From: Natrinema longum
GTDB lineage: Archaea > Halobacteriota > Halobacteria > Halobacteriales > Natrialbaceae
Length of the DNA stretch: 64,000 nucleotides
NCBI RefSeq assembly: GCF_017352095.1
Contig: NZ_CP071463.1
Span: forward strand, 1,054,001 to 1,118,000
Reading direction: 5' to 3'
Shown here in pieces: positions 1 to 17,252 of this stretch; position 1 is the first letter of the stretch; each line of letters starts with the position of its first letter. Position numbers and translations under genes: made by a program. The notes under the pieces are model-generated. The model saw only the letters and a list, made by a program, of their open reading frames with translations. It ran no database searches and was not told the DNA's origin.

Positions 1-3000
1 GTTCTTGAGGACCACCACACGCTCCTGACCGCAAGTACGGGTCGGGGAAAGACCGAGGGATGGCTCATCCCCATCCTCCAGTTCATTACTGAAGCAAAAG
101 CGGGCCAGCACGACGACCATCCACCGGACAGTGTCAAGTGCGTCCTCACATACCCGACAAAAGCACTCGCACAGGACCAGTTGAAACGATTAATCGATTA
201 CCTCTTCACGCTCAACCGGGATCGATCGCCGGACGAGCAAGTAACCGTCGGTATCTACGACGGAGACACTAAGCGTCGCGACCCCGACGAACTCGCGTAC
301 CTCCAGACCACGTTCCAATACTTCGACTGCCCGTGCGACGAGTGTGATTCGTCGCTGACGGTTAGGCAGCGTGACGACGACTCGTTCGTCGTCGAACCGA
401 TGGTGGAACACGAGGACGACCTCACGTTCGATTTCATCAAGGTCACTCGTGACGCCATCGTCGAATCGCCAGCGGACATCCTGTTGACGAACCCGGACAC
501 GATCAACTACAGGCTCTTCAACGTCAACGGTGACGAGGAACAGCAGCGCTTCGTCGCCGAGCCGAAATACTTCGTGTTCGATGAGATCCACGAGTATTCC
601 GAACTCTTCGGTTCGTTCACGTCGACGCTCATGCGCCGGTATATTCGAGAGCGGCAGGAACTCAACGGGTACGAGAGTGAGGCAGACGACGATCTCACCA
701 TCGTCGGTGCGTCGGCGACCGTGGAGAACAAACGGACGGTCTTCCAGCGCATCAATCCATTCGTCGACCCTGACATCGAAGTTGTCGAAGAAGACGAGCG
801 TACCCTCGACGCACCGTTCCCCGTCGACATCCCCGACGAATTTGTTTCGGCAGAAATGAGCGAAGAGGATCTACGTGCCGGGGACACCGATGCCGCGAGG
901 CAAGCACTTGACGCCGCTGCCGTAGAGGACGGTAGTGAGGACGTTGATGATGCGCTCTACGAACATTTAGTCGAGGACGAAGGCGGGCCCCTTGAGTTCG
1001 TCCGCGGGATCTACGCGGCGCTTCGTGAGACCCCACTTCGGCCAGTCGGTCTTCGGGACCGCCTGATCGACGAGACTGGGCTTTCCGAGTCCCAGGCGGA
1101 GACAGTCGTAGCGAACTTCATGACTATCGGCGAGGTGTCGGGTATTCTCGAGCGCCGCGCACACTTGTTCAGTTGGCCGCTCGACGGTTACTATACGTGT
1201 ATTAACTGCGGGACTGTCTACGACACCCCGCAGTCGTCCTGTACTGAGTGCGACCACCACTTCGTAACGAAACTCTCACTATGCAACGAGTGTGGTGAAG
1301 AGTCGCTTGAATCGTGGTTCTGCCCGAACTGTGAGCGTCTCGCACCTCATACCGTCACGTCGGAAGAGGGCCGTTTCGAGTATTTCCAACGAAGAGAATG
1401 TCAGTGTGAAACCGTCGACGGCGAAACACCGGAGATGGTTCGGATTTACTGGCGACCGTACTACGAGTGTACGGACTGTGGCGAGCGTCAGAAGATTGAC
1501 CACCAGCATGACTGTCCCGACTGCGACGCCGCGATGGTCCTCGACGATTCGATGGAGAAGCACGTCTGCACCAACCCAGACTGTGACGGCGAACTCACGG
1601 TTGAGGAAGCACGGGAACCCGAATGTCATTCCTGCCATTCCACTGCGTTAGAGCCGCTTGCAGACGAGGATGTTCAGTATTGCACCGAGTGTGGAGAAGT
1701 CTACGAAGATCCGGAGGGTCAGGAGTGCACTACGGACGACTGTGACGGCGAGCTCACGCCCAAACGGTTCCTCGGATGGACGTGCAGCGACCCCGGGTGC
1801 GACGAAGTGTATTTCGGTAATCCACCCGCATCGTGCAGCTGCAATAAACGGAAACTCGTTCGATCCGCGCTGTTCGACATCAACATGGTCGACGAGTGTC
1901 AGTCCTGCGGGCACGAGTTCCTTCCTAACGGCCCACACAACTGCAACTGCGACGATCCCGAGATTAGCCGCCGGGCGAAGGGCTACGGGAACTTTCGGAT
2001 GGTAGACGATAACGGACGAATTAGGGAAGCGAGTAACTTCCCCGGCGGACTGCCGTGTTACCACGAAGATAGGCGAGAGACCTACGCGAAGAACCGGCGA
2101 TACGACTCGATGCTCCGTGGTCCGGCTAATGCTGCTGTGACGAGCGGGCGCTATTTGTTGCGTTCACTGGCGGATCGCGACGATCCCAGTACCTTCGGAG
2201 AATCGAAGATGCTCTCGTTCGCGGACAGCCAGTCCGACATGAAGGAACTCGAGCGGAACTTCCGCGAACCCGAAGAGTCGTTCTTCTTCGACCAGTTGTT
2301 CGTAGATAGCGTCAGTTCGGAGGCCGACGAATCGGGTTGGGCAACACTGTCCGACGTCGTAGAGTGTGGAGTAGACGATGCTCACCAGTACGAAGGGCAA
2401 TTAGTCGGTAAGGACGGTAACGCCCCGGGGATGTACGAACATCTGACCGGCTACGACCAGTCGGTCGACGAATACCTGACGGAAGAATTAGTGTCTCGCG
2501 TCTTTGAAGGGAAGTACAGTCAGCGTTACCGCAGTAACCAGCTTAGCGACGAGGGACTGGTCGACGTTCGGCTGGACACCGAAATTGACGAACTCAGCGA
2601 GGGCGAACGTGAGTTACTCGTAGAGGCAATCGGTCAAAACCACCATTACGAGCCAAATCTGGTGGACGAGACCGAGGACGGACACGATCATCTCGATTCC
2701 CTCGTCGATCGCGGTATTCTACGTCGCGTCGAAGAGGAGGGGAGTCGGTACGTCATGGTCGACGAAGATGCGGTCGAATGTGCTGTCGTCGACAACGTGA
2801 CGCCGACAAACTACAGTCCGAGCCGAGAGGAATACGCGACCTCGCTCGAAGTCACTCTAGGGCTCGCACCGGATGATGTCATCGAGTTCGGAACGACAAT
2901 AGAGGACCGGTCAGAGTTCTCTCACTCCCACTACTCCCTGACTGCTCAACAGGTTTCGACGTCCGACCCGATGATGTTGCTCGCGCGGGCATACTACGGT

Positions 3001-5130
3001 GAGACTGATCGCGACGAGCGGCGAAAACTGGAGTACCAGTTCCGACAGGGGCGGTATCCACACTTCCTCTCGTCTGGGCCGGCGATGGAGTTAGGTGTCG
3101 ACATCGGCGACCTCAACACGCTCCTCCTGTACGGGACCCCGCCGAACGCCAACTCGTATCTTCAGCGAATTGGACGTGCGGGTCGGGCTTCGGGCAATTC
3201 CCTCATTCACTCGGTCAGCCAGCGGAACCCCATCGATTACTACTACCACGAACACCCAGAGGAACTCATCGCGGCCGACCCCCAGCAGGTTCCGCTCAAC
3301 GAGGTGAACCACGAAGTGCTCCACCAGTCGCTTTCGTGGGCCGTCCTCGACTGGGCTGCGACGACCCGATGGGTCCCATGGCGCCGCGAACAGAGCGGTC
3401 TCGAAGACCTCATCGTCTGTGACAACGAGCCAGTACCGCGAACGGAGCCCCGACCGAACGACGTGATGACGTTCACCGGGGTGCTTTCGTCCACGAACTT
3501 CCAGGTTCAGAGTTGGAACGATGATGCTCCACTCGAAGCACTTCGGAGGCTCCTCGACGAGAACCGGGACGAAATCGAGCAGTGGTTGGAGGACCTCCTG
3601 TCGTTCAGCGTTTGTTCAGCGTGTGGTCGAAAGCACGCCGCTGGCTACGGCGGGGAGTGTCAGCGTAACGACTGTGACGGTGTCGTCGAGTCGGTTCTCG
3701 ATAAGCATGGGGACATCGTCGAAGGGATCCTCGCCGGAACCGAGGACAAACAGAGCTTCGAGGAGACTATCGTCGATCTCTATCGCGACCAGCAAGACGA
3801 CATCTACGACGACATCGATGAACTTGACGAGGAAGTAAGCGATCTACGACGAGAAGAACGGAACACTCGCGATCGCGACGAAAAGCGCCGCCTACGAGAA
3901 CAGCGAGAGCAGGTCGAGCGTCAACTCGACCAACTGAACGACTATCTCGACCGACTCGAGGACATGGACTTCGGTAGCTATCTGAACCGGGAGAGTCCTG
4001 CTGCGTTCGGATTGCGGTCGGTTGGTAGCTCGGTCGATTACCAGCTCGTCGGTGAAGACTTCGAGCACGTCAGCGACGGGTCACGCGAGCGCCGTATCGC
4101 TCTCTCTGAACTCCATCCTGGCGCTGCGTATCTCTACGACAGCGAGACCTACGTCGTGACACAGGTGTACTGGGAGCCGCTGGAATCTGCACGCATCACT
4201 GACGACCTCGAAGATGCGGCTATCTGTCCGACGTGTGCTTCCGAGTACGATAGCGACACCTCCAACTGCGAGTCGTGCGGGACGCGACTAAAGCCGCTCG
4301 TCACTCAGGTCCCGGAGCGAGTGATCGCGTATCAGCACGATCTCCCGCTCAGTTCGACGCCGAGTACCCAGCAACTTCAACCCTCGACGGTCTATCAGAA
4401 CGATACGGAACCCCAGAGCACGTACGCTCCTGTCGAAACCGATGCCGGCGATTCGTTCGAGGCGACGTTCTCCCGGGACATCGTCGACGAAAACGGGACC
4501 GTCCACGGACAGTTCGAGTACGGAGACGTCACGCTACTCGCCTCGACGAGCAAATACTGGGCGACCTACAAGGACGGTGGAGCAGACCCGTTACCGAACG
4601 TGTTTGAGATGTGCGGTGTCGACGGATGTAACGGAGCAATCGCGAAAACTGGAGACTCGGCATACTGTACGAACAACGTCGAACATCCTGTCGATGAGAG
4701 CGAGGCTGTCCGGCCCGCAACGAAGTTCTCTACGAAGGCGGCCCGGGTACGCTTCGACAGCGAAGAACTCGAACACGGCTTCGCTCACGGCCTCCGAGTC
4801 GCACTCCAGTACATCGGCGGCGTTAGCGTCAGGCAGGTTCCGGAATCCATCGAGGACGAAGGAACACTAGTCTACGATTCCGACGAAGGCGGAAGCGGCA
4901 TCACCGTGCTGCTAACTCAAGATGACGGAGAGAAATTCGAACGCGCCGTCGAACTCATGCGTGAGGCGTTTTCACCGGACGAGTCGAAGTGTAACTGCGA
5001 GAATGGATGTCCGTTCTGCCTCTACCAGTATGGGTGTGTAGAGCAGAACGACCCCGAATCGTTTGCAAAGGACGAACTGCTAGACCTGCTATCTCACGAT
5101 CTTCACCTCGAACCGAGGAACGATGAGTAA
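1..5130 (+). CDS. DEAD/DEAH-box helicase with zinc ribbons and DUF1998-type C-terminus (5' end missing), DpdJ-like
   Basis: The reading frame is open from base 1, so the true start lies left of the window; 1709 residues are visible. Numbering from base 1, the Walker A motif STGRGKTE is near residue 12, motif Ia YPTKALAQ near 51, the DEIH box at 194-197, SAT at 238-240 and motif VI QRIGRAGR near 1055. Residues about 395-660 hold many CxxC pairs that look like stacked zinc ribbons. A charged coiled coil runs from about 1264 to 1324. The C-terminus has the Cys-rich signature CENGCPFC typical of DUF1998/MZB helicases. Known relatives are DrmA of DISARM, DpdJ of Dpd clusters and MrfA. The downstream PLD gene overlaps by 8 bases, and TGT-fold genes lie further on, so a Dpd-type restriction role is inferred. 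The exact family cannot be proven without profile searches. Confidence 0.85.
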   Translation, partial: VLEDHHTLLTASTGRGKTEGWLIPILQFITEAKAGQHDDHPPDSVKCVLTYPTKALAQDQLKRLIDYLFTLNRDRSPDEQVTVGIYDGDTKRRDPDELAYLQTTFQYFDCPCDECDSSLTVRQRDDDSFVVEPMVEHEDDLTFDFIKVTRDAIVESPADILLTNPDTINYRLFNVNGDEEQQRFVAEPKYFVFDEIHEYSELFGSFTSTLMRRYIRERQELNGYESEADDDLTIVGASATVENKRTVFQRINPFVDPDIEVVEEDERTLDAPFPVDIPDEFVSAEMSEEDLRAGDTDAARQALDAAAVEDGSEDVDDALYEHLVEDEGGPLEFVRGIYAALRETPLRPVGLRDRLIDETGLSESQAETVVANFMTIGEVSGILERRAHLFSWPLDGYYTCINCGTVYDTPQSSCTECDHHFVTKLSLCNECGEESLESWFCPNCERLAPHTVTSEEGRFEYFQRRECQCETVDGETPEMVRIYWRPYYECTDCGERQKIDHQHDCPDCDAAMVLDDSMEKHVCTNPDCDGELTVEEAREPECHSCHSTALEPLADEDVQYCTECGEVYEDPEGQECTTDDCDGELTPKRFLGWTCSDPGCDEVYFGNPPASCSCNKRKLVRSALFDINMVDECQSCGHEFLPNGPHNCNCDDPEISRRAKGYGNFRMVDDNGRIREASNFPGGLPCYHEDRRETYAKNRRYDSMLRGPANAAVTSGRYLLRSLADRDDPSTFGESKMLSFADSQSDMKELERNFREPEESFFFDQLFVDSVSSEADESGWATLSDVVECGVDDAHQYEGQLVGKDGNAPGMYEHLTGYDQSVDEYLTEELVSRVFEGKYSQRYRSNQLSDEGLVDVRLDTEIDELSEGERELLVEAIGQNHHYEPNLVDETEDGHDHLDSLVDRGILRRVEEEGSRYVMVDEDAVECAVVDNVTPTNYSPSREEYATSLEVTLGLAPDDVIEFGTTIEDRSEFSHSHYSLTAQQVSTSDPMMLLARAYYGETDRDERRKLEYQFRQGRYPHFLSSGPAMELGVDIGDLNTLLLYGTPPNANSYLQRIGRAGRASGNSLIHSVSQRNPIDYYYHEHPEELIAADPQQVPLNEVNHEVLHQSLSWAVLDWAATTRWVPWRREQSGLEDLIVCDNEPVPRTEPRPNDVMTFTGVLSSTNFQVQSWNDDAPLEALRRLLDENRDEIEQWLEDLLSFSVCSACGRKHAAGYGGECQRNDCDGVVESVLDKHGDIVEGILAGTEDKQSFEETIVDLYRDQQDDIYDDIDELDEEVSDLRREERNTRDRDEKRRLREQREQVERQLDQLNDYLDRLEDMDFGSYLNRESPAAFGLRSVGSSVDYQLVGEDFEHVSDGSRERRIALSELHPGAAYLYDSETYVVTQVYWEPLESARITDDLEDAAICPTCASEYDSDTSNCESCGTRLKPLVTQVPERVIAYQHDLPLSSTPSTQQLQPSTVYQNDTEPQSTYAPVETDAGDSFEATFSRDIVDENGTVHGQFEYGDVTLLASTSKYWATYKDGGADPLPNVFEMCGVDGCNGAIAKTGDSAYCTNNVEHPVDESEAVRPATKFSTKAARVRFDSEELEHGFAHGLRVALQYIGGVSVRQVPESIEDEGTLVYDSDEGGSGITVLLTQDDGEKFERAVELMREAFSPDESKCNCENGCPFCLYQYGCVEQNDPESFAKDELLDLLSHDLHLEPRNDE

Positions 5131-7099
5131 TCCACTCAACACCGCGAACGAACTCCGAACGCAGTCACCTGAGCGCCTCTGGGCGCTTTCAGCGGAGAGC
5201 GTGTACTCTGCACTCGCCGCAACAGCAACTGGGGAGCCGATACAGGAACGCCTCGAACCGCATGTTCGGACTGAAATTATCAGAACGAATGACGAACGAG
5301 GCCGCGATCCCGTCGTCTCGATACACGAGTGGCTGCTCGACGAACTCGGTCTCGTCGACAACGGCACCATTTCGCTACTGGGAATGGTAGTGCTAATCTC
5401 GGACGAGCCACAGCCGTTCATCCGAACAGCTACTGTCGCTCGGCTTCAGCCAGCTGAGATGGTGCTTCGCTCGTGCAACGAAATCGAGGAGGATAACGTC
5501 CCGAGACGCGAACTCGACAGCCTGCTCGCCGACGAGTGGGATGAAACCGTTCTTGCTCCCCTCTTAGGGTCGCTCGGGTTCATGACTATCTATCCCGATA
5601 GCGTCGACCTCAATCGAGAACGGATCGACAGTTCGCTGTCGGCCCAGCAGACAATGTCTACCGAGACAGTTGTTGCAGAAGCCTATCGCGACATCCTCTC
5701 TTGCGTCGTCGAATCTGCGGACGCAGCCTGTCTAGAAGACCTCGTGCAGCGATTAATTGGAACAACTCCGACGAAGGGAGAACTGGAGATGGCCGAGGTA
5801 GCAAACCTCGCCAGTACGCAAGCGATCACAGTCGATGAAACGGAAGTCGAAGACGCAGTCCGTAACCAGCGGCAGGAATACGAGGACGAATTCGACCAAG
5901 TGCGATCACTGCTGGTGCCATCAACTGAGGCCGACTTAGAGAGGGTCAACACGGACCAGTCGGTCGGACTCGACGATGTATCGGAAGATGCGGATCTTAG
6001 CGCTGATGAACGGGAGGCAGCTCTCAAAGTCGTCGCCACTGTTGCGGCATACCCCGTTCTGGCGACGTTCGACGTGCACTTCGTTACTGAGCGGTGGCCG
6101 AGCGTAACGCCGTACTCTCTCTACCAAGCACTTTCATCAGTTCCGGGAGTCGAGTGTGAGGTCAGCGACGGCCTCGTCGAATTTGAGGTCGTGCCAGAAG
6201 CTGTCGATGTCGAGGCTGTACGAGACGAATATACGAAACACCTCGTGGAACGCTGTTCGGACATTCAGAGTCGCATCGACACCCTCTCTCAAGAGACGGT
6301 GTCATTCCCACCTGACCCCGTCGCGACCGAGTCGATGGTGGTTCAGGACTACGAGTCGATCGACAGCGGGGCGATCGCACCGACCTACTTCACCTACACG
6401 CTCGTCGATCCGGACGCTCTCGGAGAGCAAAAGATGGACGCCTACGTCGGAGATTCACGTGGACTCGGTAGAGAACGGGCACGTCTCCGCCGCTGGCATG
6501 AGAGGCGCTCGTCGGGACTGAAACCGTACACTGCAATGACCGACCGCTTGTTCAGCCTCGGCCTCGAGCGCGACATAGAGGACAAGGTTTTGCGCATCAT
6601 GACACCGTTCGACGACGACACGTTCAACGAGTACGTGGCCCAAATTCGTCGTCTTCTCGAACATGGCTTCGAGCTTCGTTTGCTCACTCGCCATACGAAG
6701 GAACCCTGGGAGTGGCGGCGGCTTCAACGAAACCTGCTGAGCGAGATCAAAGAACATCGTGATCGAGTGACGGTGCGTTCCTATTCGCGGTTCAAGGAAC
6801 ACCAGCGTGTGACGCCCGATATGGACTTCCGCGATCTCAATGAAATCGGGATTCATGGCAAACTCCAGACGGTCGGTGCACCGGAGGAAGGGGCAGCACT
6901 CCTCGGGTCTGCGAACTTCATGGAGAACAGTTACGACTGGAACCCCGAATGTGGGATCTACACCGAACGAACGCAGTTTGTTGATGCCGCAGTCGAATTC
7001 TTCGACATCGTATGGGACATCTCGGCGGCTGACGAATTATCGATTGAGCGCTTGCAAGAGATTCCCGATCACCAGCTAGTACCAACGTACTATAGCTAG
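5123..7099 (+). CDS. Phospholipase D-fold protein (putative nuclease) with long N-terminal region, DpdK/DrmC-like
   Basis: This is a 658-residue protein whose start overlaps the helicase stop by 8 bases, indicating translational coupling. The C-terminal part holds one HKD-type motif: His578 and Lys580 in IHGKL, followed by GSAN at 595-598, preceded by a strand-rich segment around 530-560 (FELRLLTR) typical of the PLD fold. One HKD copy means an active site would need a dimer. The N-terminal 400 residues are helical and charged and match nothing I recognise; they may hold winged-helix modules. PLD proteins paired with DUF1998 helicases occur in DISARM (DrmC) and Dpd (DpdK), but those are usually much shorter, so the long N-terminus is unusual. 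DNA cleavage is inferred from the fold and context. Confidence 0.75.
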   Translation: MSNPLNTANELRTQSPERLWALSAESVYSALAATATGEPIQERLEPHVRTEIIRTNDERGRDPVVSIHEWLLDELGLVDNGTISLLGMVVLISDEPQPFIRTATVARLQPAEMVLRSCNEIEEDNVPRRELDSLLADEWDETVLAPLLGSLGFMTIYPDSVDLNRERIDSSLSAQQTMSTETVVAEAYRDILSCVVESADAACLEDLVQRLIGTTPTKGELEMAEVANLASTQAITVDETEVEDAVRNQRQEYEDEFDQVRSLLVPSTEADLERVNTDQSVGLDDVSEDADLSADEREAALKVVATVAAYPVLATFDVHFVTERWPSVTPYSLYQALSSVPGVECEVSDGLVEFEVVPEAVDVEAVRDEYTKHLVERCSDIQSRIDTLSQETVSFPPDPVATESMVVQDYESIDSGAIAPTYFTYTLVDPDALGEQKMDAYVGDSRGLGRERARLRRWHERRSSGLKPYTAMTDRLFSLGLERDIEDKVLRIMTPFDDDTFNEYVAQIRRLLEHGFELRLLTRHTKEPWEWRRLQRNLLSEIKEHRDRVTVRSYSRFKEHQRVTPDMDFRDLNEIGIHGKLQTVGAPEEGAALLGSANFMENSYDWNPECGIYTERTQFVDAAVEFFDIVWDISAADELSIERLQEIPDHQLVPTYYS

Positions 7100-8183
7100 C
7101 TTGTCCTGCCTAGCAAGCGCATTTGGATCTCTGCCTCAGAAACATACGTTAGTATACAAGTGGTACAAATATGTATATAGCCCAACTGGCGACTGAAGTT
7201 CTTCGCAAGTTGGCTCAGTCGATTCGTCGCCTTAATGGCTCATAGGCATGGGTTCTTACGGACTCAAAACCACCCTCACGACTCCACTTTTTGCTATATA
7301 AGCGTATTAGAAATGATAATACCCCATCTAATGGCGAGAGAAAGCGTGAGAGGTTTCGACGATTTTTGCCATTGCCGACCTCACACTTTCTAAGGAGTTT
7401 ATAGAAGCCGAAATAGTAATTGGGTTTTTGTTTCCCACTAAAACTGCCGAAAGATAATTCTGGTGACAAATATAGCTTCTCGGGATGACACAAATGTGTG
7501 CAAACTGCCCACATCGGTCTAAAAATCGCAGGCCATCGAGACGACTCTGAAATCATCCAAATGATATTCTGTGTATCATCCTCCGTATTATAAATAATAT
7601 TACCATTATGCAGCACGCTTAGCACACATCATGAGAGAATTTTTACTGTAATGTGGGCAGATTGCCCACAGAGTTCCAGAAATCGCAAGACGAAATCCGA
7701 AACACAATATTCAAAATCAGACATGTGCTAGGTAGCCCACTATACATAAGATGGTTTTTATAACTCAGATTTAATTCGCGCCCGGAATAGTTTGACTGAT
7801 TATCATAATGTGGGCAGATTGCACACATTCCTTGAGAATTGGTGGACGTGGCAAGAGGTATCGTATGAAAATTCAGGTATTAGGATATTTGTCAGTATTA
7901 CATAAACTCCCATACACTATTGGCCACCAAATTGAACTCCATCTGTTATTTCTGCGTTTTCAGACCCCACTGCTATTATTAACTCGTAGGTTCTGGCGAA
8001 TCGCCATACTGTAAGGGGTCTAATGGGTTGGAGTCATCGTGAGAACGTCTAATTGGCTCGCCAATACGGATCCTTCGAGATTGCACACAAGAGCGTTCCA
8101 GCGTGACGTCTTGAGCGACGTGGTTTCCTACCGAAAGTCGCCGCTGCCCAGTGATTCATCAGAGCCAACTCGTACAAAATTGG
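7100..8183. other. A+T-rich spacer without a convincing gene
   Basis: The 1084 bases between the PLD gene and the next small gene are markedly A+T-rich. The longest open frames, at 7215-7625 on the minus strand and 7643-8014 on either strand, have no haloarchaeal acidic bias and no recognisable domain. The notable content is the set of three equally spaced palindromes listed separately. TATA-like stretches such as ctatataagc near 7294 could serve promoters, but none can be assigned to a gene. Confidence 0.5.
7495..7827. repeat. Three 19-bp palindromes at an exact 157-bp pitch
   Basis: The copies are TGTGTGCAAACTGCCCACA at 7495-7513, TGTGGGCAGATTGCCCACA at 7652-7670 (a perfect dyad) and TGTGGGCAGATTGCACACA at 7809-7827. 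Each follows the pattern TGTGNGCA-N3-TGCNCACA. Start-to-start distance is 157 bases both times, close to 15 turns of B-DNA, so all three would face the same side of the helix. Copies 2 and 3 share the preceding taatg, and copies 1 and 2 share a following atcgca about 13-18 bases on, which hints at very diverged tandem units. They look like operator or replication/partition iterons rather than CRISPR, because the intervening DNA is long and the arms are symmetric. Confidence 0.7.
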
Positions 8184-8450
8184 TCATTCGCACCAGCAGC
8201 GAACTCGACTCTCATCCTCTTCGGTTTCGACCTCACACGTGAATGAATCTCCTTCAGGGAACATGATGAACCGATCTTCTTCAACGTTTTTGACGCAGTC
8301 AACGTCCTCTATCTCCCAATTCGCATCTTCACCATCCTCCCATGTGTAGTAGTCATTCTCGCCTTCAACTGCAAAATCAAGGATCCCAGATCCACTCCCG
8401 AGAATGTGTTCAACCTGTTCCAGCGTGGTTGACTGAGAGATTCTTGGCAT
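8184..8450 (-). CDS. Small acidic hypothetical protein
   Basis: This is an 88-residue protein from the ATG at 8450 (MPRISQST); an ATG at 8471 would give 95 residues. It is strongly acidic and rich in E, D and aromatic residues, with a Cys-containing tail ending RCWCE, as expected for a soluble haloarchaeal protein. I do not recognise the family. It sits alone on the minus strand between the helicase-PLD pair and the TGT operon. The acidic composition supports real coding, unlike the overlapping plus-strand frames. A small antagonist or accessory role is possible but unsupported. Confidence 0.5.
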   Translation of the reverse strand: MPRISQSTTLEQVEHILGSGSGILDFAVEGENDYYTWEDGEDANWEIEDVDCVKNVEEDRFIMFPEGDSFTCEVETEEDESRVRCWCE

Positions 8451-8704
8451 GGTCGAGTGTTCTGTGTTCACACAAATTAATACCGGCTACTTTGGCGGCG
8501 CTGTGTCACTATTTCAAAAGGGAAGTTCGTGCCACCGATGGAGGATGGCAACTCCCAAGCTTCCCAGGTGGGGACGACGTAATTTTAGAGCATACCACGC
8601 ATCCCACTACGCGGTAGGCCGTCGTCCACTGGATCAAATGCGGTCAAGAGATAAAGATATTGGCCGCGTAGACTGGTGACTTACTTTATTCTAAAGAGGT
8701 GACC

Positions 8705-9058
8705 TTAGACCGAGATGGCAAGTTGAGCGAGCACAGAGATCGATGCGTACCTCTGGAGACGGGGGGTTACCACTACCTCCTTCGCTGATTCATCGTACTC
8801 AATCAAGCCCTTCGCGCTGAGTTTCGGGAGGTGCGTTTGGATCAGTCCGTTGTAGGCTGATTCGTAATCGCCTGTACTGACCTGCGTGGGCGGGGTTCCG
8901 GTCTCTATCCCTCGAATGACCCTCGCGATGTGACGGACTGTTACAGAGGCGTTCTCCTTGAACAGAGAGAGGTACCGAATGAGTAGGTTACGCCGTTCGT
9001 TGCCGAGGAGTTTGTGAACCGAAGCCGGTCGGGTGTCGACGTCACTCTTAGCTGCCAT
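8705..9058 (-). CDS. DUF7344-type winged-helix protein
   Basis: From the ATG at 9058 (MAAKSDVD) the protein has 117 residues. The core reads LGNERRNLLIRYLSLF, then LPKLSAKGLIEYDES, the arrangement of the haloarchaeal DUF7344 winged-helix domain: a recognition helix after an RR-N-L start and an HLPKL-type turn before a strand. These proteins are presumed DNA-binding regulators. A longer frame from 9097 starts with a Trp/Arg-rich run and is less likely. A 53-codon frame upstream overlaps its start by 11 bases. It may regulate the island, but no operator can be tied to it. Confidence 0.65.
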   Translation of the reverse strand: MAAKSDVDTRPASVHKLLGNERRNLLIRYLSLFKENASVTVRHIARVIRGIETGTPPTQVSTGDYESAYNGLIQTHLPKLSAKGLIEYDESAKEVVVTPRLQRYASISVLAQLAISV

Positions 9059-9209
9059 TCTTCTCCACCTCCGTTGAGGGCAATGCGATAGTTGCATCTA
9101 CTATTCCATCGTCGGACTTTTGCGAATCGTCCTCGACTATGTACATGCTGTCTGCTCCAGACAGCGCGGGTTCGGTGTCTTCACCACCGGGCCCACTTCT
9201 GTGGACCAC
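9048..9209 (-). CDS. Possible 53-residue acidic ORF overlapping the DUF7344 gene
   Basis: A GTG at 9209 opens a 53-codon frame that ends with TAA at 9048, inside the first codons of the DUF7344 gene. The sequence is acidic (PGGEDTEP, YIVEDDSQKSDD), like true haloarchaeal proteins. No domain is recognisable. The 11-base overlap suggests translational coupling. The remaining bases up to 9390 show no other gene. Confidence 0.3.
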   Translation of the reverse strand: MVHRSGPGGEDTEPALSGADSMYIVEDDSQKSDDGIVDATIALPSTEVEKNGS

Positions 9210-9390
9210 CGCGCGTCAAAAATGTGTAGGTCGGGAACCGTCTTAACCGTAGGTAAATCGGCTCAGTGGCCAACAAACCAAGCTTTGGGATTCGCCTCTC
9301 TTAGAGAAACCGGGTTCTGTCAAAATTTTCCCCCAGTTGATAGAACTCGTATGCTGGATAGAGGGGCTATCCTCACTACCGTTAGCAGTC

Positions 9391-10296
9391 TCAGGTAGAA
9401 AAGCTAGGCGAAAATCGGACAAAAAGCGGAGCGTGATCACTGCATTCGAGTCCATCAGCGTCATAATAACAGTCCTCAGGATTCAGGCTCTCTGATGCGA
9501 TCACGTGGTCGAATCGTTTCCCCGTCAGGGTATCACGGTCTCCCGTAGGATGACTGATGTCTAGTGTACCGAGATCACCGTAACCGTAGATCGTTCGAAA
9601 GACATCTACCATCCCAACATCCCCTAGACCTGTCAGAATGTTGTACTCTGCGGCCTGCCATCGCTCCGATAGTGCATCGTCCTTCTCGCTTCGCCACGGA
9701 ATCACCTCACCGTCTTCGGTCTCAGCCTTGGGAGCGTTGAAGTCCCCTGCGAGTATTCGGGGCCCGGTCTCTTTCGCGAGAATGCGGTTGTATACGTTCT
9801 CCAGAATCTTGATCTTTTCCTCCCCGAACATATTCCCAGGCACGGTCCGTACGTTCCAGAGATCAATCGTTGTATCACCGAAATCAACCTCTGCGTTGAG
9901 AATCTTCTCAGGGAAATTTGTATCCCAGTGCTTGCGGGTAGCGTCACCAAACGGGGGCTCACTGATACTTGGCGTCTGTCTACTGAGGTCTTCCAGAGCA
10001 CTATCCTCGTGTATCGCAATGAGATTCCCGTTCACCCCGTTGAAATCTTGGAAGGGGGGCACGTCAAGCTCTCCGAGTTTGCGACTCCAATCCAAGGTAT
10101 CCACGATTTCCGCATACCCGGCAATGCCCTCCAGTTTGTTATACCAGAGTTCACGCCGGTTAGTCGTCACTTCGTTGAGCATCAGGAGATCGGGACAGTC
10201 GGCATTCTCCACAATGAACTGAATCTGCTTGTCAATCCGGTCAGGTGATCCGGCCGGCGGAAACGCACCCTGGACGTTCCACGAAAAAACCTCCAT
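9391..10296 (-). CDS. Endonuclease/exonuclease/phosphatase (EEP) family protein
   Basis: This is a 301-residue protein starting MEVFSWNVQGAF at 10296. Family signatures in order are WNVQG near residue 6, LNEV near 40 (metal-binding Glu), LAGDFNAPK in the middle (catalytic Asp/Asn) and CSDHAPLFV at the C-terminus (Asp-His pair). These are the metal and catalytic residues of the EEP superfamily, which includes AP endonucleases, DNase I-like nucleases and lipid phosphatases. No signal peptide is seen, so it acts in the cytoplasm. It lies between the two halves of the putative Dpd-like system on the opposite strand, so a nuclease role in the same defence context is possible but inferred. Confidence 0.8.
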   Translation of the reverse strand: MEVFSWNVQGAFPPAGSPDRIDKQIQFIVENADCPDLLMLNEVTTNRRELWYNKLEGIAGYAEIVDTLDWSRKLGELDVPPFQDFNGVNGNLIAIHEDSALEDLSRQTPSISEPPFGDATRKHWDTNFPEKILNAEVDFGDTTIDLWNVRTVPGNMFGEEKIKILENVYNRILAKETGPRILAGDFNAPKAETEDGEVIPWRSEKDDALSERWQAAEYNILTGLGDVGMVDVFRTIYGYGDLGTLDISHPTGDRDTLTGKRFDHVIASESLNPEDCYYDADGLECSDHAPLFVRFSPSFST

Positions 10297-10537
10297 ACCG
10301 TCTATATCTGGCTCTAGAATTATAATCCAATCCCAGTATACGCGCGCTGTATTCCAGCACGACCGCTAATCTCCATCACCTGCTGTGGGTTTCAACAAGA
10401 CTAGAAAAGCCCACCTCGGGCTCGGGTACGTCCTAACGTGATAATATTTTCATCCGTTCCGGAACTACACTTCGACGAAGCGGAAAGGGAGATTCATAAG
10501 GAGGAACCAACTTAGCGTAAGACGGTGAATAGAATCT

Positions 10538-13441
10538 GTGAGATTTTACGTTCCTGAGTGGGACGACGCGGTCGATTCCCACTACGATTTCCGACACGAC
10601 GAACTCTCTACTCTCGACCGCCAGGAGCGGGATCTAGATTACATCTGGGATATTTTCGAGCGCGATACAACCCCGATCGATGGCGTGCTAATTTCGCGTG
10701 AACAAGTTGAAGAGACGACTCGCAAAGCAGATCGTCTCGCCGAGTACGGGGTCTACGATGACCCGGTGTTGTCCGTTCCAGAATGGCTTCCTACGATCAG
10801 CGACTGCGGCGCGTGGGGCTACAAGTCACTCCCGTTCCCTCCGTACGGGAACGCCGAGATGCTTGACTTCTACGAAACGCTGGAGGTCACAGTCGGCGTT
10901 ACTATCGATCACCTCGTTTTGGGTTCGGGGAAAGATAAGGGTCGTCTGTACCTCGACGAACGCGCCTTCCATACCGATTTCAAGAAGAGTGACATCCCAG
11001 ACGCACTGACTGACGTCGTCGATTTGATGGTCGACGAGTGGCCCAACGAATGGCCTACTTACGTCGAGGAGTACGAACCGTCCATCTGTACTCAATCGAA
11101 GAAGGAGGTCGAGGCCTTTGCTCCAGAAGACTTCCAGGGTGACGTCGATACGGTACTTGCGCGATTGGCTCGCGATCCCAGAGCGGTGTACCGAGAGGAC
11201 GACGCAGCATTCCGATACGAGCTTACTCTCCGGAACGCTCAGGAGATGTACGACCTGTACCACCGAGGTAACTACCCGTTCCGGCTAATGGTAGCGATCC
11301 AGGGCTGGAACCCCGAGACGTATATCGAGGCCACGGAAGAAGTGCTCGACATTGGATACAATTATCTCGGTATCGGTGGCGTCGCTGGCAGTCCCATCCA
11401 CGACGTCAGGCAAATCGTGAAGGGCGTCGGAAAGACTGTAAAGGAGTTTGAACGCGAGAATAACACTCGCATTGACTCGCACGTCTTCGGGTTTGCGAAG
11501 AGCGAAGGATTCGAGACGGTCGGTCGATCGGGGATGACCAGTTTCGATAGTGCGAGTATGCTCCGTTCGGCATGGACAGGAGGGCAGAATTACCGGCTTG
11601 ACAACAACGAGCGATACGACGCGATTCGGGTTCGTTACCCATCTAACCGCGATTCTCTTGCAGAGGCCGTGGAGAAGTCCCTTCGAGGCCGCGAGACGCT
11701 AGTTGCGTTGAGAGCCTTCGATTCTGAGGAACCCATCGTTGACGCGCTCTATGAGTGGCAGAAGAAAGCAGAAAAGGTCCTTCCAGCCACTCGAGAATAT
11801 CTACGTGAACACCGTCACGACGAGCAATACGACGCTTCGCTACTCCAAGAAGTTGAAACCGCTTTTAGAGACGATTTCGAGTACGCCCGAGAGCTCCAAG
11901 CGAGCTTCAGCGACAATCTTCGAGGAAAGCTGGTCAAACTTCTTCGGAAAGACGATCCCGAAGACCCGGTTAGCTTCGAAGAGTATTCTGATCTACTAAC
12001 CGTCGCACAGCAGGAGTTCGAGCCTTTCCCGCGTATGACTACCATCCTCGAAAACGACGATCCTGAAACTACTTGTGATGCGATTTGGACCGTCGTTCGC
12101 GATTACGCGACGTGGATCGGCGACGAAGACCTCTTAGAAGAGTACCAGCGTACACTGCAAAACCGACCTTGGGAGAAGTGCGATTGCTCGATCTGTACCG
12201 AGAACAGTATCGAGGTCTGTATCTTCCGTGGTAACGACCGCAACCGTCGACGTGGATTCCATAACACCCGACGGTTCTACGACGAGTTCACCGACGAGCT
12301 ACCGAAAATCCTCATCGGAACTCGAGGTACGGCATCTCTGAACGGCTACGAAACTATCGAGGACTACCTTCGAGCCGAGCATCCTGACTTCTGGCAGCAG
12401 GTGCATGATCTCCCAGTTGCCGAAGTTGGCGTTTTGGATGCCGGCGGTGTACGGGAATGGTGGGACGAGACCCCAACCGGCGTTTCGCTTGCCCGGAGTC
12501 GCATGGCTGAAAACCTTGGCCAGCAAGCAGAGCGATACCAGAAGGTGTTCCTCCACACACCTGACGGAGAAATCGACGAGCACATCGTAGATGCCGTGGA
12601 AGAAAGCAACTGCACAATCCAGACGTTCCAAGATCCATCGAAACTGCGCCAGAATGCTTTGGAAGCGTGCGGAGAGAATTACATAGCTGGGGATGACTTC
12701 CTGCCTCACCCACCCAAAATCAACGTCCAGGATGGGCTCGACATTTTGGTTATCGACCAATGTTCTGGCTCGAAGGACATCCCCGAAGGTGCACCCGTCT
12801 TCGATGATAAAGAGACGCTCCAATTCTCGAGAGAAGAGCTCTTGGAGCGCGATAATGTTCCCGGAATCAACGCCAAGGATCTCTACACGGGCCGACAGCA
12901 GGAGTTCGTGAAGGAAGCGGTTAGACGACTCAAAGGAGAAGGTCACGATGTCGAGCGGTACTTCATAAGTGCAGGCTTCGGCCTCGTTTCCGAGGACGAA
13001 CCGTTGCCGCCATATGAAGTGACGTTCAGCTCGATGGGCGTTGCCGACATCAGGGAGCGATCTAAACAACTCAGCATTCAGGCCGACTTAGAGCAGGTGC
13101 TGAACGAGTCAGACTACGATGTAGTCTTCTTCACTCTCGGGAAGGATTACTACACCAGCATTGACATCGATAATATGGTCCAGAACGTTCGTTCTGACCG
13201 TATTGGAGTCGTCTTCAACCGGGAACTCGTCGACGATCAGTTCGATAATATCGTGTCAGTACCTGCCCGCACAGAAGACGCGAAAAACCACGGCACAATC
13301 GTAGTAGGGTTGAAAGGACACTATATGAAGAATTTCGCACACCGTATAGACAGTGTCGAATCACTGGAACCTGAAGCGATTGAGGGCCTCTGTCGTCGTG
13401 TAGAAGAGGAACCTACTCAGATGGCCTTCGAGAAGTATTAG
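10538..13441 (+). CDS. Large TGT-fold protein (DpdA-like) with C-terminal DUF6884-like domain
   Basis: This is a 967-residue protein with a GTG start; an in-frame TAG lies just upstream. The TGT fold is shown by SDCGAWGY with Asp89 (equivalent to the DSGGF motif), the glycine-rich LGIGGVAG near 278-284, SFDSAS with Asp337 (nucleophile position; FDSA is typical of archaeal TGT) and a zinc site of Cys548, Cys550, Cys553 and His575. About 170 extra residues separate the nucleophile from the zinc site. Residues about 730-930 form another domain, starting with VIDQCSGSK (739-746) and continuing AKDLYTG and SAGFGLV, as in DUF6884. Canonical TGTs exchange guanine for 7-deazaguanines in tRNA, whereas DpdA acts on DNA. 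There is no PUA domain. It leads the operon, and preQ0 insertion into DNA is inferred. Confidence 0.75.
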   Translation: MRFYVPEWDDAVDSHYDFRHDELSTLDRQERDLDYIWDIFERDTTPIDGVLISREQVEETTRKADRLAEYGVYDDPVLSVPEWLPTISDCGAWGYKSLPFPPYGNAEMLDFYETLEVTVGVTIDHLVLGSGKDKGRLYLDERAFHTDFKKSDIPDALTDVVDLMVDEWPNEWPTYVEEYEPSICTQSKKEVEAFAPEDFQGDVDTVLARLARDPRAVYREDDAAFRYELTLRNAQEMYDLYHRGNYPFRLMVAIQGWNPETYIEATEEVLDIGYNYLGIGGVAGSPIHDVRQIVKGVGKTVKEFERENNTRIDSHVFGFAKSEGFETVGRSGMTSFDSASMLRSAWTGGQNYRLDNNERYDAIRVRYPSNRDSLAEAVEKSLRGRETLVALRAFDSEEPIVDALYEWQKKAEKVLPATREYLREHRHDEQYDASLLQEVETAFRDDFEYARELQASFSDNLRGKLVKLLRKDDPEDPVSFEEYSDLLTVAQQEFEPFPRMTTILENDDPETTCDAIWTVVRDYATWIGDEDLLEEYQRTLQNRPWEKCDCSICTENSIEVCIFRGNDRNRRRGFHNTRRFYDEFTDELPKILIGTRGTASLNGYETIEDYLRAEHPDFWQQVHDLPVAEVGVLDAGGVREWWDETPTGVSLARSRMAENLGQQAERYQKVFLHTPDGEIDEHIVDAVEESNCTIQTFQDPSKLRQNALEACGENYIAGDDFLPHPPKINVQDGLDILVIDQCSGSKDIPEGAPVFDDKETLQFSREELLERDNVPGINAKDLYTGRQQEFVKEAVRRLKGEGHDVERYFISAGFGLVSEDEPLPPYEVTFSSMGVADIRERSKQLSIQADLEQVLNESDYDVVFFTLGKDYYTSIDIDNMVQNVRSDRIGVVFNRELVDDQFDNIVSVPARTEDAKNHGTIVVGLKGHYMKNFAHRIDSVESLEPEAIEGLCRRVEEEPTQMAFEKY

Positions 13442-13538: not shown

Positions 13539-14573
13539 ATGCTGTACAGACAACGAAAACTCGATCTACCCCACGGGGAACTGGATACACCAGTTCTCTT
13601 CCCGGTTCGGAACGTGGGAAAACGATCGAGTGACAACACTCCCAAGTACGTCGGCACTATCCCGGAGTTTTCCGCGGCGATGATTAACGCTCGATCGATA
13701 CGGAACCGGGACCCGATGTGGAATCGGCTAACGAATGGTGTGACTCTCCGCGAAGAGATGGATGTTCCAGAAGAGACCATCATCTTCGCTGATAGCGGTG
13801 GATTCGATTTTTCTGAGCAGGAGATCGACACTACACCGAAAAAGACAATCAAAACTCAACGGAAACTAGATAGCGACATACACGGGACAATAGACATTCC
13901 TTTGTCCAGAGAGAACCGTGCAGCAGAGAATCAACGGCGTATCGATCGAAGCATCGAGTTTGCTCTCGAGGCAAGTGATCTCCATACTGGCGATGCTCTA
14001 CTCTTTGCGAGCGTTCACGGGTACGATCCAGAAACAATTCGGAACAATATCCAGTACCTGGAGAACCACGGGGATTTTGACGGATACGCACTCGGGAGTA
14101 TGGTTCCGATCCGGACGGACTACAAAAAGGTAACAAAGCTGGTACTGGCTGCAAGAAATGCGACTGAGAAACATCTACACGTCTATGGGCTCGGTGGATT
14201 AGTCTATCAACCACTTTTACTTTATCTCGGTGTCGATAGTTTTGACTCGTCGGCGTTCATCAGAAGTGCCGGCAATCGTAACTACCTGATACCTGGTTTT
14301 GGAGGGGAAGAGCTCCACAACATCGAGGACTTAGATCGGTTGCCTTGCCCTTGTCCGATCTGTGGGCAACGGAGCTTAGAGGACATCCGGGAAGATCGAA
14401 CCGCGCTCACTCAGCATAATCTCTGGGCGCTTGCAACGGAGCTTCGGCGATTCAAATACATAGCTGAGTCCGATCGAGATGTCGAGAATTATCTCGATCT
14501 TCGGTTCCAGGGCAACGAAGTCACTAAGCGAGCCTATGAGACCGCAAAACAGCAAGTGAGGAGGCTCACATGA
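13539..14573 (+). CDS. Compact tRNA-guanine-transglycosylase-fold enzyme, DpdA-like
   Basis: This is a 344-residue protein starting at the ATG at 13539, right behind a GGGAGG sequence. It matches the TGT core in order: HGELDTPVLFPV near 12-23, FADSGGF with Asp85, DIPL near 119, GYALGSMVP near 182-190, HVYGLGG near 214, GVDSFDSSAF with Asp236 as the presumed nucleophile, and a zinc site of Cys270, Cys272, Cys275 and His293 (CPCPIC...QHN). Archaeal tRNA TGTs are usually near 500 residues or longer because of PUA-type tRNA-binding domains. This one stops after the catalytic barrel, so another substrate, most likely DNA, is inferred. Its stop overlaps the next start by 4 bases. It is the best DpdA candidate here. 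Confidence 0.85.
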   Translation: MLYRQRKLDLPHGELDTPVLFPVRNVGKRSSDNTPKYVGTIPEFSAAMINARSIRNRDPMWNRLTNGVTLREEMDVPEETIIFADSGGFDFSEQEIDTTPKKTIKTQRKLDSDIHGTIDIPLSRENRAAENQRRIDRSIEFALEASDLHTGDALLFASVHGYDPETIRNNIQYLENHGDFDGYALGSMVPIRTDYKKVTKLVLAARNATEKHLHVYGLGGLVYQPLLLYLGVDSFDSSAFIRSAGNRNYLIPGFGGEELHNIEDLDRLPCPCPICGQRSLEDIREDRTALTQHNLWALATELRRFKYIAESDRDVENYLDLRFQGNEVTKRAYETAKQQVRRLT

Positions 14574-16868: not shown

Positions 16869-17252
16869 ATGACCTCTGATGGCGAAGATGAACAAGATAG
16901 GACTGGCCCGCTTGGCAAGGACCAACGGTACTTCGATAACAGTGCCGAGGTCATCGCTGAGAGGGCCAAGTTGTGGACGAATTCCCGCCGTCAGCACGTT
17001 GTGCGGCAGGTGCTAGCTGCTCCAAACAGGGAGATGTCGCTTCGACAACTTGCGCAAAATCTTCGGGACTACATCGATGAACGTTCCGATCAGGATCCTG
17101 ATTACGATGACATTCGTCAGACTCTTCGTCGCCGTCACCTCCCCCTCCTCTCTGAGTACGATGTTATCGACTTCGAAGACAATATAATTCGGCCTGGACC
17201 GGAATTTGGCGCCGCAGTAGAACTGTTAGTTCGCAACGACCCTCGAGTATAA
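16869..17252 (+). CDS. DUF7344-type winged-helix protein
   Basis: This is a 127-residue protein starting at the ATG at 16869 after a ggagggg stretch that could serve as a ribosome site. The middle reads SRRQHVVRQVLAAPNREMSLRQLAQNL, then RRRHLPLLSEYDVIDFED, the DUF7344 pattern of an RR start helix, a recognition helix and an HLPLL turn followed by a strand pair. The N-terminal 30 residues are polar and acidic. It is presumably a transcriptional regulator, and it follows the TGT operon on the same strand at 245 bases. It is the second of three DUF7344 proteins in the island. Confidence 0.7.
   Translation: MTSDGEDEQDRTGPLGKDQRYFDNSAEVIAERAKLWTNSRRQHVVRQVLAAPNREMSLRQLAQNLRDYIDERSDQDPDYDDIRQTLRRRHLPLLSEYDVIDFEDNIIRPGPEFGAAVELLVRNDPRV

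Follow-up and report, generated by a model that had tools for sequence, protein, structure and literature searches.

BRIGADE systems are Dpd/ARMADA hybrid defence systems of halophilic archaea (PMC12458937). CreTA modules act as toxin-antitoxin RNA guards of CRISPR-Cas in haloarchaea and are located inside cas loci (PMC8501985). The window, a stretch of 64,000 nucleotides from the genome of Natrinema longum, contains an island of BRIGADE-like gene content. Into this island a non-coding cassette is inserted, in which a non-coding unit of ~95 nt is present in three diverged tandem copies, each marked by a palindrome at its start.

Host island and insertion site

The gene content of the window fits a BRIGADE/Dpd-like island (Table 1), with the helicases assigned by profile hits. 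Two large YprA-like helicases with DruE/DpdJ/DrmA matches are adjacent, one of them left of the window. The PLDc_2 match of the PLD nuclease reaches 24.7 bits, under the Pfam cut-off of 27. Of 7-deazaguanine genes, DpdA and TGT are present; a DpdH-like protein and a BrxD-like ATPase are also encoded. A second, more divergent DUF7344 protein is located in the same island at 16869-17252. The palindromes had been placed between two arms of a putative defence system by an initial annotation, and they are indeed flanked by helicase and PLD genes on one side and by DpdA genes on the other.

The slot between the PLD gene and DpdA (7100-10538) is a cargo hotspot, the contents of which differ between islands. 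Elsewhere it is empty, or it carries a pair of 267 and 128 aa (locus L132) or an ADP-ribosylglycohydrolase-like ORF (L133). An Exo_endo_phos gene at 9391-10296 is missing from the otherwise nearly identical islands of genomes G300 and G347 (gap 9363-10344). The segment 8514-8660 is conserved; several islands without the cassette regain homology there, immediately past the variable slot.

The cassette occupies the part of the slot next to the PLD gene. The loci L164 and L166, which lack the cassette, represent the empty site: there the PLD gene lies next to the 95-aa ORF, while here 1,084 bases separate the two, 178 of these belonging to a MITE. Relatives of the MITE are found on eight Natrialbaceae plasmids. 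The AT-rich non-coding cassette of ~0.9 kb is real and conserved and comprises the three units with module A and inverted repeat B upstream. In module A, 6 of 120 columns (7180-7299) are variable in the five-genome alignment, and model R1, built on this module, scores above 16 bits in cassette loci only.

Table 1. Features of the island and of the cassette (positions in the window)
Feature	Position	Strand	Description
YprA/DruE/DpdJ-like helicase	181..5130	+	Helicase_C, MZB; PADLOC DruE/DpdJ; 5' end left of window
PLD-fold nuclease	5123..7099	+	upstream of cassette; PLDc_2, E=2.3e-5
Inserted non-coding segment	7100..8183	.	between PLD stop and 95-aa ORF; ~0.9 kb without MITE
Module A	7163..7298	+	strongly conserved non-coding segment, ~135 nt; possible structured RNA
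Inverted repeat B	7339..7391	.	arms AGAAAGCGTGAG (7339-7350) and CTCACACTTTCT (7380-7391); from sequence and alignments
AATATAGCTTCTCGGGATGA before unit 1	7469..7488	+	conserved; TCTCGGGATGA kept here in all lineages
Unit 1	7485..7580	+	palindrome and ~60 nt conserved 3' flank; alignment A3, model R2 69 bits
Palindrome 1	7495..7513	.	TGTGTGCA-AAC-TGCCCACA; exact match; arms invariant in five orthologues
Unit 2	7642..7737	+	model R2 70 bits
Palindrome 2	7652..7670	.	TGTGGGCA-GAT-TGCCCACA, perfect; exact match
Unit 3	7799..7894	+	model R2 60 bits
Palindrome 3	7809..7827	.	TGTGGGCA-GAT-TGCACACA; exact match
MITE	7989..8166	.	178 bp; TIRs GGYTCTGGYGAATC; 8-bp target duplication AACTCGTA
Acidic 95-aa ORF	8184..8471	-	58% identity in L164, L166; present in cassette-free islands too
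DUF7344 protein	8705..9058	-	Pfam PF24035, E=5.8e-19; distribution does not track cassette
DpdA-like protein with DUF6884	10538..13441	+	PADLOC DpdA, E=3.8e-73
Second TGT-family protein	13539..14573	+	Pfam TGT, E=4.9e-28

Palindromes and units

The initial annotation reported three dyads of 19 bp at an equal spacing of 157 bases, and exact matches were found at all three places. The dyad symmetry holds fully for the middle site only; the outer two are mismatched at the position that had been written as N. The sites share the motif TGTGKGCA-N3-TGCMCACA, and the half-sites TGTGTGCA and TGTGGGCA occur in combination in the array. A search of the whole genome (3,588,874 bases) revealed none of the scattered copies that would have refuted the initial annotation: the three sites are its only matches with 0-1 mismatch, and the window holds no additional site at up to 3 mismatches. 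With up to 2 mismatches, the genome yields six matches of the motif, three of them these sites, versus eight of a reversed control pattern. Exact matching carries the signal and loose similarity does not. Single-palindrome searches across the genome contigs returned scattered unrelated matches, mostly bacterial.

Alignment of the units extended the homology beyond the palindrome, with ~60 nt on its 3' side common to the units. Among nine units from three lineages, the mean pairwise identity amounts to 0.77-0.85 in the palindrome and 0.35-0.54 in the next 60 nt (background 0.26, 99th percentile 0.33). As the conservation is confined to the 3' flank, the unit is directional, in the orientation of the upstream operon. 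Among five aligned genomes, none of the 48 arm positions is variable, against 112 of 464 positions in the rest of 7400-7920 (p=5e-6). The inter-palindrome sequence diverges while the arms do not, and the spacer sequence of the cassette evolves faster than the surrounding genes, unlike the palindromes. No reading frame is conserved in the units. Protein-coding units in the form of ATG-TGK-GCA mini-ORFs were rejected, as stops occur at differing places and changes are not synonymous. Neither an Rfam family nor a tRNA was recognised in the cassette.

Distribution among haloarchaea

The cassette is present in seven of 421 haloarchaeal genomes and represents three lineages, comprising a BRIGADE-like island in five genomes and two BREX loci. 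The spaced-pair pattern matched seven of 392 genomes and its reversed control none; it covered start-to-start distances of 143-173, and wider spacings could escape. A search of 29 further genomes of the family added no cassette. Of the BREX loci, the one in G070 was found by a DNA search without spacing rule and the one in G273 by the spaced-pair pattern. Each of the seven genomes has exactly three units on one strand, just 3' of a helicase-nuclease operon. Model R2, which applies no spacing rule, recovered three units in every one of them, whereas neither eight genomes without the cassette nor 116 sampled ones gave a convincing match. The motif and the spacing are kept in related islands, as the initial annotation had required, and in the two BREX loci: the spacings are 157/157 in G000, G300, G062, G058 and G347, 158/159 in G070 and 146/157 in G273.

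The PLD gene has homologues in 29 of the 392 genomes, five of which carry the cassette. The PLD proteins of these five islands are 96-100% identical and their host genomes span three families (f1, f7, f17). Because of this near-identity across families, the five represent one recently spread island and not deep conservation. Both BREX loci encode BrxA and BrxC, and the G070 stretch additionally encodes BrxB and another BrxC. At both, an AddA-like helicase-nuclease gene ends ~500 bases before the cassette. The two loci (L186, 9722-10333, and L214) share 97% identity as far as the end of repeat B, which is perfect in G273; thereafter, the sequences of G070 (611 bp) and G273 (5.2 kb) are wholly different until 40 bp before brxA. 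The G273 segment carries a Hachiman-like helicase and other genes.

A general AddA-associated element was excluded, as 28 other AddA loci are without palindromes or other cassette motifs. A plasmid or phage origin was also rejected, since phage and plasmid records hold no cassette match. Matches of the spaced-pair pattern in viral contigs were unrelated AT-rich repeats, and the 12 single-palindrome matches are about at chance level by estimate.

Proposed function

The palindromes are tentatively proposed, at somewhat less than even confidence, to be operators that place three tandem promoters of short non-coding transcripts under protein control, forming an optional defence-island module. The binding protein, the promoter role, the transcripts and any connection with infection are inferred. 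A dimeric, two-fold symmetric DNA-binding protein would bind the palindromes via the half-site TGTGKGCA, and every palindrome would overlie the start of a short transcription unit that encodes no protein, three such units lying in tandem. While bound, the protein would keep the three small promoters silent together (or co-activate them); its release, e.g. during infection, would free the transcripts. Module A, repeat B and the units would together form an optional, horizontally moving cassette 3' of helicase-nuclease operons in BRIGADE-like and BREX islands.

In 9 of 12 alignment rows the middle position of the arms is left unpaired without a compensating change, so the half-sites vary independently. 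As the changes do not preserve RNA pairing, the palindromes are read as double-stranded sites for a dimeric protein. Invariant arms and independently varying TGTGKGCA half-sites provide the two-fold symmetry expected of an operator array, and the occurrence beside two unrelated defence systems also counts for the operator model. Haloarchaeal promoters contain a TATA box and a -10 element (PMC4983044). The AT content is highest at -24..-21 and -10..-7 relative to the palindrome and dips in between, in keeping with these two elements, which suggests that each palindrome covers a transcription start. The promoter register is suggestive only, because the signal ranks 7 of 155 offsets and a different offset scores higher. 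The asymmetry of the conserved 3' flank speaks against the model, as a simple dimer site needs none.

No regulator gene was recognised as common to all cassette loci. DUF7344, the candidate checked, had been suggested as binder in the initial annotation, which found no support. It is present in all five cassette-bearing BRIGADE-like loci, but the homologues in the cassette-bearing G070 and G273 are distant, with only 40% and 29% identity, whereas the cassette-free G083, G126, G363 and G223 have homologues of 52-60% on the same contig as the island. DUF7344 follows the island, not the cassette.

Alternative explanations

An RNA-based function was considered rather unlikely. The units would be three tandem small RNAs starting with a hairpin, and module A a fourth structured RNA, together constituting a guard or addiction module like CreTA. 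The directional conservation on the 3' side of each unit and the location inside defence loci, as that of CreTA inside cas loci, agree with this. Module A may be a structured RNA: 10 of 26 pairs of its predicted fold are kept by two-sided changes, exceeding all shuffles for cells changed. However, a single split between two groups provides this support, which disappears when three representatives are used (z=-0.15), and the reverse strand scores equally well. Every shuffle pairs at least as well as the mismatched hairpin stem, and a rare-codon mini-ORF like CreT was not recognised. The independent half-sites TGTGTGCA and TGTGGGCA would fit a dimeric DNA-binding protein better than an RNA hairpin. 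A combined scheme is less probable still: an RNA guard or trigger common to BREX and BRIGADE, in which three protein-repressed small RNA genes and RNA A would respond to a disabled defence. A slightly lower chance is given to three same-face operators, whose bound dimers would loop or cluster and regulate the flanking defence genes. The spacings of 146, 157, 158 and 159 correspond to 13.90, 14.95, 15.05 and 15.14 turns at 10.5 bp per turn. All are within 0.14 turn of a whole number despite the diverged sequence between the sites, which would suit same-face binding and makes helical phasing possible; among these, only the 146-bp interval, shorter by one turn, is informative. The common ancestry of the spacings and the preset range of the pair search speak against taking them as proof of looping. 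Moreover, the array lacks a constant adjoining promoter, as the next gene is brxA in G070, a convergent one in G273 and the convergent 95-aa ORF here, and the proposed binder DUF7344 does not track the cassette.

The array and repeat B could also be recombination sites for swapping defence-island cargo, similar to integron attC sites, although this has little probability. The abrupt loss of identity between G070 and G273 after repeat B and the different cargo of relatives in the PLD-DpdA slot point in this direction. Homologous recombination accounts for the swap, no integrase was noticed among the ORFs read in the examined stretches, every array has three units, and cargo is never found between them. 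Least probable is a neutral relic of passively carried tandem duplications of a 157-bp repeat. The three units are mutually homologous, but the arms are invariant amid diverging neighbouring sequence, and the unit number and the near-constant spacing recur in three lineages; this reading is disfavoured.

Comparison with known systems

From its pattern, the cassette may be a regulatory or RNA component that archaeal defence systems have in common and that surveys based on genes miss. With three sites, one spacing and one deletion, it is a compact test target. Like CreTA, the cassette is a small non-coding module in a defence locus, outside the core genes. Unlike CreTA, it consists of three tandem units, carries no CRISPR-like repeat or recognised tRNA-sequestering mini-ORF, and adjoins BREX or BRIGADE-like systems instead of cas genes; degenerate CRISPR repeats beside cas genes, typical of CreTA, were not found, as no CRISPR-like Rfam match was obtained. 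REP elements and IS200-IS605 hairpin ends resemble the sites in the imperfect palindrome, the mid-stem mismatch and the 3-nt loop, but the cassette has only three copies per genome at a fixed spacing, with no such transposase recognised nearby. The cassette shares with operator arrays of dimeric regulators a palindrome that is repeated at near-constant spacing at one genome location. In contrast to these arrays, each site has a conserved one-sided flank of 60 nt, no target gene is constant, and no adjacent cognate regulator was recognised as common to the cassette loci. The host island resembles BRIGADE in its two YprA-like helicases, PLD nuclease and DpdA/TGT genes. A difference lies in the cassette, which is an optional insertion, absent from most related islands and present in BREX loci too.
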